Positions 18,833-21,648 of a DNA stretch of 45,644 nt are shown piece after piece. Under the pieces are notes generated by a model. The model saw nothing but the letters and a program-made list of their open reading frames with translations, did not search any database and was not told the origin of the DNA. A program made the position numbers and the translations under genes. The stretch is from Natrinema thermotolerans DSM 11552 (GTDB taxonomy: Archaea > Halobacteriota > Halobacteria > Halobacteriales > Natrialbaceae), in assembly GCA_000337115.1 (NCBI GenBank), contig AOIR01000004.1:1303-46946 (forward strand), in the 5' to 3' direction. How positions within the stretch are numbered: the stretch's first letter is position 1; each line of letters begins with the position of its first letter.

Positions 18833-19837
18833 ATGTCCGACCAGCTCTGGACGGATCGCGCCCGGGAGTACCCCCTCGAGTGCGATCACTGCCATTATCC
18901 GATCCCCGGCGAGCCCGAAGCGAACGAGGACGGGCGCTACTGTTCGGCCGCCTGCCGCGAGGCTGCCGGCGACGGCGCGACGATGCCCGATCCCGACGCC
19001 TACAAGCGGGTGATGACGGGAGTCGAACCGCTGGACTCGCTGGTTCCGAACGGGATCCCGGCCGACTCGATGCTCCTCCTATCGGGCGACGAAGGCACCC
19101 GCCGGGCCGAACTCGGGACCGAACTCGTCTGGCGCGCCTTAGAGCGCGGCGAACCCGCGGTCGTCTGTTCGGTCGCGAACCCGCCGACGGCGACGCTCGA
19201 GCGCTTCTACGAGAACGGCTGGAACGTCCTGCCGGCGCTGGAGAGCGACCGCCTGCGGATCGTCGACTGTTTCACCCATCGGCTCGACGACCGCGACGAG
19301 TTTCGCGCCGGGCGAAACGAGTGGGCGACCTTTCTCGGCGAGGCCGCCGCCGACGCGGTCGTCGAGGTCGAGGATCCGGGCGACCGCCGCGAGGTGGCAA
19401 ACGGGCTTCACCGGGCGCTCGACGACCTCGAGATGACCGAGACGGGGCTGGTGACGATCGACTCGCTGGACGAACTCGAGTCGCTTTCGGGTTCCGGGCT
19501 CGTCCACGACTTCGTGAAAGACGTTCGGGCGACGGTCTGTACGGCACGGTTCGTCCCGATCGTCGCCGCAGCCACGACGGCGGGGCAGGCGGCGTATCCC
19601 GAAACCGAGCGGGTCTTCGACGGGATCGTCGACCTGCGGCTGCGCGATGGGAGCGCGGCGGAGACCCGGCACAAACAGCTCGCGGTCCGGAAACTGACCG
19701 GGGCGGCGTTTCTCCCCCAGTGGGTAACGTACGACTACGAGCCCGCCCGCGGGCTGTTCGCGTTCGGCCCGAACACGGACACCCGACAGGCCCGCGACCT
19801 CGGGAACGGGTCCACCCAGTCGGCCCAGCGCCGGTAG
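18833..19837 (+). CDS. KaiC/RecA-like protein with N-terminal zinc finger
   Basis: This 334-residue protein begins with a zinc-finger-like C-x2-C...C-x3-C module (C17, C20, C37, C41; CDHCHYP and YCSAACRE). Residues about 55-330 look like a KaiC/RadA core: GVEPLDSLVPNGIPADSMLLLSG (a KaiC entry strand), SVANPPTATLERFYENGW, a Walker-B-like LVTIDSLDELESLSG, and a C-terminal RKLTGAAFLPQWVTYDYEPARGLFAFGP. The P-loop position reads SGDEGTRRAEL, lacking the GKT/S of a Walker A, so it probably does not hydrolyse ATP normally. Possible roles are a sensory or gas-vesicle GvpD-like regulator, but this is inference. A TTCTTTGCC box about 30 nt upstream supports the ATG at 18833. Confidence 0.72.
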   Translation: MSDQLWTDRAREYPLECDHCHYPIPGEPEANEDGRYCSAACREAAGDGATMPDPDAYKRVMTGVEPLDSLVPNGIPADSMLLLSGDEGTRRAELGTELVWRALERGEPAVVCSVANPPTATLERFYENGWNVLPALESDRLRIVDCFTHRLDDRDEFRAGRNEWATFLGEAAADAVVEVEDPGDRREVANGLHRALDDLEMTETGLVTIDSLDELESLSGSGLVHDFVKDVRATVCTARFVPIVAAATTAGQAAYPETERVFDGIVDLRLRDGSAAETRHKQLAVRKLTGAAFLPQWVTYDYEPARGLFAFGPNTDTRQARDLGNGSTQSAQRR

Positions 19838-19994
19838 CGGCCGGGGAGTGGAGGGTCAGTTCCGATGCCGACTGCACGCGAACGCACGCTCAGGCTTTAT
19901 CCCGACGTTCGGTATAGGACCGACCGCAGTCACACACCGACCAGCGGCGGGCGCGTCGTTCGAGCGTCAGTGAGAGACGATCTACAGCCACACC

Positions 19995-21161
19995 ATGACC
20001 GATCGAAACCGGGACCGAGACCGGCGGCGTACCGAGCGATCGACCGACCGCGGACGCGGCACGCGGGACCAAGGCGGCGACCGGAACCGCGAGGACAGCG
20101 ACCGCGGCTGGCTCCACGGCCTCTTCAGCCGCGGCGAGAGCGAGGATCGAAGGACACAGGGCCCTGAGCGCGGACAGGAACAGCGCCGGGCCGGAGGTCG
20201 CCAGCCCGACCGCCAGCAGCAGGGGTCGGGCCAGCGTCGCGAGCGGAGTCAGGGGGCCGACCGCCAGCGCGGTCAGCAGTCCGGCCGACGACGAGGCGGG
20301 GCCGGACAGCAGGGCGGCCGCAGGGGGGACAGCGGCTTCGAAACGAACGCGATGCAGGAGGCCAACCTCGAGTACGGCGGCGAGGCCCGCCATGAGAAAC
20401 ACCGTGGTGGGCAGCGCGGCATGCAGGGCCGACGCGGACAGGGACAGCAGCAAGGAGGGATGCGCGACTACGGCGAACGAAGCCAGCGGCAAGGTGGCAC
20501 GCAGGGTCAACGCGAACGGAGCCAGCAGCGAGGCGGGATGGAGAGACAGCACGAACAAGGCCAGCAGCAGCGACAACCCGGCGAGCAGGACCAACACGGC
20601 CAGCGCGGCCCCACGGAACAGGGACACCGAACGGGGGGCCAGTCCCAACAGCACCGAGAGGAGACGGCGACGGTCGACGACCGGCAGGGAGCCCAGCAGC
20701 GCTGGCACGAGAACCGCGATGCCCAGCCGGGCGCGACGACGAGCGAACGGGGCCGACAGCACCGCGGGCAGCAACACGGGAGCCAGTACCAACGGGGCCA
20801 GCCCGAGTCCCGTCGCCACCAGCGGAGCGCGGGCCACGAACCCGGACGGCAGCGGGACCGCAGTGTGCAGGGAGCGGGCCGTTCGCAACGGGACTACGGC
20901 GACACCCAGCAGTTCGACCGCGGCGAGGACCGCGATACCACCGGCGGGCGCATGAACCGCGAGCAGCAATCCGGCGGCGGCCTCGAGTACCGCCAGCAGG
21001 GACGCCGCTCCGAACAGGGGGACTGGACCGAGTCCCGCGAGTCGCAGGGCTCGAGCGGCGAGGAGAACCGCCAGTTCCAGGACGACGACATGGGCAACCG
21101 ACGGCACGTTCACGAGCGCGATCCGACCCCCGAAGACCGGGACGAGGAGCGGTCACGCTGA
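19995..21161 (+). CDS. Arg/Gln/Gly-rich intrinsically disordered protein
   Basis: The protein has 388 residues, almost all low complexity. By eye Arg is about a fifth to a quarter, with Gln and Gly nearly as common. Lys occurs about once, and Leu, Val and Ile are nearly absent. Motifs recur as RGGQRG, QQQGG, RSQ and RDYG, so it resembles RGG/RG-type nucleic-acid-binding disordered proteins. Only three short ordered-looking patches occur: GWLHGLFSRGE (about 38-48), FETNAMQEANLEYGG (about 115-129) and an acidic C-terminus FQDDDMGNRRHVHERD. Codon third positions are GC-rich in this frame. A TATA-like GCTTTATCC at 19893-19901 would give a leader of about 70 nt. Such a basic protein is anomalous in a salt-in haloarchaeon. 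Function unknown; RNA binding or condensate formation is inference. Confidence 0.6.
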   Translation: MTDRNRDRDRRRTERSTDRGRGTRDQGGDRNREDSDRGWLHGLFSRGESEDRRTQGPERGQEQRRAGGRQPDRQQQGSGQRRERSQGADRQRGQQSGRRRGGAGQQGGRRGDSGFETNAMQEANLEYGGEARHEKHRGGQRGMQGRRGQGQQQGGMRDYGERSQRQGGTQGQRERSQQRGGMERQHEQGQQQRQPGEQDQHGQRGPTEQGHRTGGQSQQHREETATVDDRQGAQQRWHENRDAQPGATTSERGRQHRGQQHGSQYQRGQPESRRHQRSAGHEPGRQRDRSVQGAGRSQRDYGDTQQFDRGEDRDTTGGRMNREQQSGGGLEYRQQGRRSEQGDWTESRESQGSSGEENRQFQDDDMGNRRHVHERDPTPEDRDEERSR

Positions 21162-21237: not shown

Positions 21238-21648
21238 ATGGGCGGCACGTACGTTCTCGTGATCGAGGCGACGCGAGCGGCGACCATCGAGGTCGGGGCG
21301 CTGGGCGAGCGGGAATTTTCCGCGGGCGCGTATGCGTACGTCGGGTCGGCGTTCGGCCCCGGCGGCTTCAGCCGGGTCGATCGCCACTGCGAACTGGCCG
21401 CCGGCGACCGCGAGACGCGCCACTGGCACGTCGATTACCTGCTCGGCCATCCCGCGACACGACTCGAGACCGTGATCACGTTCCCCGATGCCGATCGGGA
21501 GTGCGAACTGGCGGCCGGGTTGCCGGGGGAGCCGGTCGACGGGTTCGGCGCGTCGGACTGTGACTGCAAGGCACACCTCCTCGCGGTTCCCGACGCACCG
21601 ACAGTTCGAACCGCCGCAGTCGACGCGGGCGGCGTCGTCGACCAGTAA
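21238..21648 (+). CDS. DUF123 GIY-YIG-like domain protein
   Basis: The protein has 136 residues. The segment FSAGAYAYVGSAFGPGGFSRVDRH (about 31-54) contains a GAY-x-YVG core that corresponds to GIY-YIG, and it continues with RHWHVDYLLGH (about 66-76). These are the conserved blocks of DUF123, a small archaeal/bacterial family related to GIY-YIG nucleases and sometimes fused to endonuclease III. A nuclease or DNA-binding role is plausible but unproven. Two acidic Cys pairs occur late (DCDCKAH). A TTTTTG box lies about 28 nt before the ATG at 21238, which I prefer to the ATG nine codons upstream. Confidence 0.82.
   Translation: MGGTYVLVIEATRAATIEVGALGEREFSAGAYAYVGSAFGPGGFSRVDRHCELAAGDRETRHWHVDYLLGHPATRLETVITFPDADRECELAAGLPGEPVDGFGASDCDCKAHLLAVPDAPTVRTAAVDAGGVVDQ

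Follow-up and report, generated by a model that had tools for sequence, protein, structure and literature searches.

Introduction

Haloarchaeal proteomes are acidic (PMC6821194, PMC12029414), and the low-complexity regions of halobacteria are strongly so, with an average of 34% Asp+Glu (PMC6821194). Basic proteins form a minority in Natrinema and Haloarcula, in which they were interpreted as proteins that bind DNA, act in transport or associate with membranes (PMC12029414). Elsewhere, disordered Arg/Gly-rich regions bind RNA (PMC6821194), and hydrophilins are defined by high glycine content and high hydrophilicity (PMC4190154).

Here we describe an open reading frame (ORF) in a window of 45,644 nucleotides, the whole stretch of Natrinema thermotolerans DSM 11552 DNA that was analyzed, whose 388-residue product we name RQG:

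19995 to 21161, + strand: RQG gene, encoding an Arg/Gln/Gly-rich, predicted disordered protein of 388 aa, with an ATG start and a TGA stop

Like the halobacterial acidic regions, RQG is a low-complexity sequence in a salt-in archaeon, but it contains 17% Asp+Glu and 20% Arg. It shares with RGG/RG regions an Arg/Gly/Gln-rich disordered character in which Lys and aliphatic residues are nearly absent. Unlike RGG/RG proteins, it has neither an excess of RGG nor a folded RNA-binding domain, its Tyr and Phe residues are scarce, its net charge is small, and it carries several conserved non-RGG motifs. It shares high Gly, extreme hydrophilicity, disorder and short repeated segments with hydrophilins and with LEA proteins such as dehydrins and KGG (GsiB-like) proteins, from which it differs in being basic, Arg-rich and unmatched by their Pfam models. 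Our literature search found no report of such a protein in haloarchaea, and Pfam, NCBIfam and PDB-sequence searches found no relative of RQG; a single weak collagen-repeat match in one member reflects low complexity. We conclude that RQG represents a real haloarchaeal family that annotation has missed: disordered proteins, rich in Arg, Gln and Gly, that share short conserved motifs.

Composition and predicted disorder

RQG contains 19.8% R, 17.5% G and 16.8% Q, with 0.3% K, 1.0% L, 0.8% V and no I, which agrees with the earlier note's description of an Arg-rich frame with Gln and Gly, nearly devoid of Lys, Leu, Val and Ile. The departure from haloarchaeal acidity that it pointed out is borne out by a pI of 10.9, compared with 4.2 to 4.6 for six proteins encoded nearby. 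The net charge is a modest +12 (78 R+K, 66 D+E) because Asp+Glu make up 17% of the residues, and the protein is therefore a polyampholyte. Its C-terminal 43 residues are acidic (net -6). The GRAVY value is -2.29, and aromatic residues are scarce (3%), most of them located in motifs 2, 3 and 6 described below.

The chain is predicted to be fully disordered. AlphaFold2 run with a 13-sequence alignment gave a mean pLDDT of 42, no residue at or above 70 and no secondary structure, and the Uversky hydropathy of 0.245 falls below the charge-hydropathy boundary of 0.424, on the disordered side.

Selection on the reading frame

Judged by its pattern of substitutions, the RQG ORF is a real gene under purifying selection in its own frame. 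Comparison among the four closest sequences yielded dN/dS ratios of 0.23 to 0.45 in this frame and of 1.06 to 2.29 in the antisense ORF in codon phase with it (19890 to 21113, 407 aa), which is interrupted by stops in most relatives. An antisense gene was rejected on the basis of these ratios above 1 and of the stops. A second antisense frame (-b) has a low ratio too (0.25 to 0.58), yet it contains 4 to 10 stops and is therefore not coding.

The earlier note had rightly described the opposite strand as open, but its argument that third-position GC favors the sense strand does not hold, as GC at the three codon positions is 0.81/0.54/0.81 both in the sense frame and in the in-phase antisense frame. 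It had proposed looking for orthologues with conserved ends, and these exist: both the FETNAMQEANLEYGG motif and the C-terminus are kept. Lack of conservation, which it named as grounds for discarding the frame, is not what relatives display, since the frame, the FETNA motif and both termini are preserved at the low dN/dS given above.

Conserved motifs in a variable chain

Alignment revealed six or seven conserved short motifs, with GWLHGLFSR, FETNA..LEYGGEARHE, GRHQRS.G, SGGGLEYRQ..RSE.G.WT and NRRHVHE.DP as their cores, and a tandem repeat lies in one of the linkers:

19995 to 20027, + strand: motif 1, the N-terminus M[TN]DR[NY]..DRR, residues 1-11
20100 to 20141, + strand: motif 2, DRGWLHGLFSRG.S, residues 36-49, missing from the members in Natrialba and Halobiforma
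20331 to 20393, + strand: motif 3, SGFETNAMQEANLEYGGEARH, residues 113-133, in 1-3 copies in relatives
20445 to 20569, + strand: 39-bp tandem repeat in a linker, 3.2 copies
20691 to 20720, + strand: motif 4, AQQRWHENRD, residues 233-242
20772 to 20834, + strand: motif 5, QHGSQY..GQPE.RRHQRS.G, residues 260-280
20943 to 21035, + strand: motif 6, GGRMNREQQSGGGLEYRQ.GRRSE.GDWTE, residues 317-347
21087 to 21131, + strand: motif 7, DM.NRRHVHERDPT, residues 365-379, within the acidic tail

In the Natrinema group, conservation was 0.84 within the seven motifs and 0.54 outside, a contrast that arises partly by construction because the alignment scored was also the one used to set the motif limits. Forty columns are invariant in 13 Natrinema-group proteins, and 14 remain so across 22 proteins from several genera. 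The motifs that persist across genera are 3 (FET[ND]A...LEYGGEAR), 5 (GRHQRS.G), 6 (SGGGLEY...RSE.G.WT) and 7 (RRHVHE), by which, together with location at the epimerase-gltB locus, we defined the family; the window protein has all four in an Arg/Gln/Gly-rich chain at that locus. Motif 3 has one copy in Natrinema, two in Natrialba and in Natronorubrum, and three in Natronolimnohabitans and in genus g26.

The Arg/Gln/Gly linkers between the motifs evolve fast and vary in sequence and length. Family members range from about 300 to 760 aa, except for one short acidic member, and this spread comes largely from tandem repeats in the linkers. A syntenic orthologue in genome G104 (L151:6244-6732) is an acidic protein of 163 aa with a pI of 4.1. 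It retains motif 6 together with a version of motif 5; the motifs therefore outlast the composition. The Arg/Gln/Gly composition is not the invariant of the family.

The motif 3 core recurs at different loci in two further families of the order, f17 (G215, G228, G279, G211) and f4 (G287, G350, G383), whose R/Q/G-rich proteins carry an L[EQRS][YF]GG[ED][AS]RH-like motif. It appeared in none of 20000 composition shuffles for each of three such proteins, with a pattern chosen after these proteins had been seen. They may be distant RQG homologues or may make convergent use of one motif. The f17 proteins (L231, L235, L274) share an N-terminal motif, roughly VExxVKxxxQGxExxIPA, that was not found in Natrinema-type proteins. 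Within 50 bp downstream of the YGGEAR-bearing protein of G279 (L231:5450-7208) lies a small gene, whose product presumably resembles amphi-Trp proteins.

Distribution, locus and loss

By our own tally, based on searches and on reading of the loci, 16 of the 29 Natrinema-group genomes have an RQG gene, including G013, in which it is broken by an unresolved assembly base. The gene is decayed in two others (G017, G023), reduced to remnants in one (G015) and absent in 10. Named records that carry it include Natrinema mahii, pallidum, zhouii, versiforme, altunense and gari. Beyond Natrinema, members occur at the same locus in at least thirteen further genera of Natrialbaceae (g20, g21, g22, g24, g26, g28, g29, g30, g32, g35, g37, g39 and g44), among which records name Natrialba, Halobiforma, Natronorubrum and Natronolimnohabitans. 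The full-length profile underestimates the size of the family: syntenic members in several genera escaped it and were recovered by synteny and motif profiles. Weak full-length matches in G363, G374 and G376 and weak motif matches in G126, G129, G157, G224 and G351 are chance-like or unsettled. A virus or plasmid origin is unsupported, in that tblastn searches of viral contigs and plasmids found no relative, a weak negative with the low-complexity filter on.

The order of the locus in Natrinema is epimerase (-), KaiC-like (+), RQG (+), DUF123 (+), CMD (+), [methyltransferase] and gltB (-), and it recurs in other genera with some genes missing. The immediate neighbors in the window are as follows:

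18833 to 19837, + strand: upstream neighbor, linked without being obligate, a protein with a zinc ribbon and a KaiC-like ATPase domain
21238 to 21648, + strand: downstream neighbor, likewise linked without being obligate, a DUF123 (PF01986) protein

The upstream gene was correctly called zinc-finger KaiC-like before: its product matches the KaiC domain PF06745 (E 1.7e-15) and has an N-terminal CxxC...CxxxC. RQG is present in Natrialba without the KaiC-like and DUF123 genes and in Halobiforma without the KaiC-like gene, and in six Natrinema genomes without RQG the two neighbors are only about 95 to 205 bp apart. This pattern indicates that RQG is inherited at one place, untied to either neighbor and dispensable, and an obligate operon with either was rejected from it. 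As neither neighbor is obligate, genomic context yields no pathway for RQG. From its distribution, the gene seems to be useful rather than essential and to have been lost repeatedly.

Decay was seen at L034 and L035, through a truncation in G017 and a frameshift in G023. At L162 (G015), only the promoter region, the MNDR start and a C-terminal remnant, RAHDEDWSG, survive. The KaiC-like gene is split over two frames in G015 (C3:2849179-2850167) and G094 (C22:130562-131511), and thus seems to be decaying there.

Putative promoter and leader

Two conserved elements precede the gene:

19873 to 19894, + strand: conserved block TGCACGCGAACGCACGCTCAGG, directly upstream of a TATA-like box, found by sequence conservation
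19896 to 19900, + strand: TTTAT, putatively a TATA-like box, with TTTA invariant in 15 Natrinema-group sequences

A TGCACGCGAACGCACGCTCAGG-like block followed by TTTAT is kept about 95 to 122 nt before the ATG in these 15 sequences, which suggests that RQG is transcribed from a promoter of its own, with a leader of roughly 70 nt. In a search that tolerated up to 3 mismatches, the block occurred once in each of the three genomes tested, and a regulon sharing it was rejected for that reason. The presumed leader (window positions 19922-19994) contains stretches conserved in 15 relatives, CCACCAGCG...GCGCGTCGATC. Many haloarchaeal transcripts are leaderless, which makes its conservation worthy of attention. 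The RQG region, presumed leader included, had no Rfam match, and no structured RNA was found in it; a scan for bacterial promoters and terminators returned nothing, as expected for an archaeon.

Candidate roles

Rapid divergence of a disordered chain around a few conserved short motifs, of which one is present in several copies, typically marks a multivalent scaffold or adaptor. Because RQG has these features, we tentatively favor a role as a cytoplasmic, fully disordered multivalent scaffold or adaptor, which we consider plausible rather than probable. Each motif would be a docking site for a folded partner. In molar KCl, the polyampholyte linkers would keep the chain extended and in solution without a large acidic excess, and they may touch polyanions such as RNA or the acidic surfaces of proteins. 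Binding to partners would be multivalent and tuned through motif copy number and linker length. Alternatively, the motifs could be conserved as modification sites or for self-association. We think it doubtful that such motif-studded scaffolds assemble into condensates or ribonucleoprotein complexes at molar KCl, with YGGEAR as a docking code in three families; charge attraction would then be screened, and Arg/Gln stacking and hydrogen bonding would do the work.

A possible though unlikely alternative is a stress protectant akin to hydrophilins: RQG would then be an abundant and hydrated disordered chain that, through its composition rather than by specific docking, shields other molecules in desiccation, dilution or salt shock. 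Its glycine content and GRAVY value are those of a hydrophilin, and we take the likeness of its short segments to those of dehydrins and KGG/LEA_5 proteins as a lead only. However, the LEA, dehydrin and KGG Pfam models matched neither the 22 members (E<=1) nor the motif peptides (E<=10), and KGG/LEA kinship was rejected for lack of a profile match. Protection by composition alone would not call for motifs with invariant residues, and the acidic orthologue differs in composition. A hydrophilin role thus fits the composition of RQG but leaves its motif conservation unexplained.

The reading to which the earlier note points, an RGG-type RNA-binding, phase-separating protein, appears rather unlikely. 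The richness in R, G and Q favors it, as does an excess of RG dipeptides in other-genus members L055, L079 and L076 (0/1000 shuffles reach the observed counts). In the window protein, however, there are 3 RGG against 2.4 in composition shuffles (p 0.42) and 17 RG against 13.5 (p 0.14), so the RGG-type motifs reported there amount to composition. With its small net charge, few aromatics and no folded RNA-binding domain (by Pfam or PDB-sequence search, and no structured segment is predicted), a direct tie to RNA binding or phase separation is not sustained. The case for an RGG-specific function of this protein is weakened by the absence of RGG enrichment and the shortage of aromatics, and Arg-phosphate contacts would be weaker in molar KCl. 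It is too early to apply the RGG label. The earlier observation is therefore confirmed in part: a genuine, disordered, Arg/Gln/Gly-rich protein stands, whereas RGG enrichment and the GC3 argument fall, and its picture captured the composition without separating from it the discrete short motifs under selection.

It is improbable that RQG is an accessory of the KaiC-like ATPase or DUF123 protein: the KaiC-RQG-DUF123 order is fixed on one strand in most RQG-bearing Natrinema genomes, but Natrialba and Halobiforma dispense with one or both neighbors, several Natrinema hold both without RQG, and RQG has a putative promoter block of its own. That the frame is spurious, with the true gene or none on the opposite strand, can be set aside almost entirely, as the open antisense ORF and its equal GC3 are outweighed by the dN/dS contrast (below 0.5 sense, above 1 antisense), the antisense stops and the retention of motifs and both ends across genera.

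Significance

RQG adds an unannotated family to genome annotation. Its composition is surprising for a salt-in cell: a selected protein of about 300 to 760 residues with a pI near 11 and about 20% Arg, present in some fourteen genera, is an exception in acidic proteomes. It poses the question of how an Arg-rich disordered chain stays soluble and binds partners at molar KCl, and it offers a natural system for the behavior of disordered proteins under screened electrostatics.
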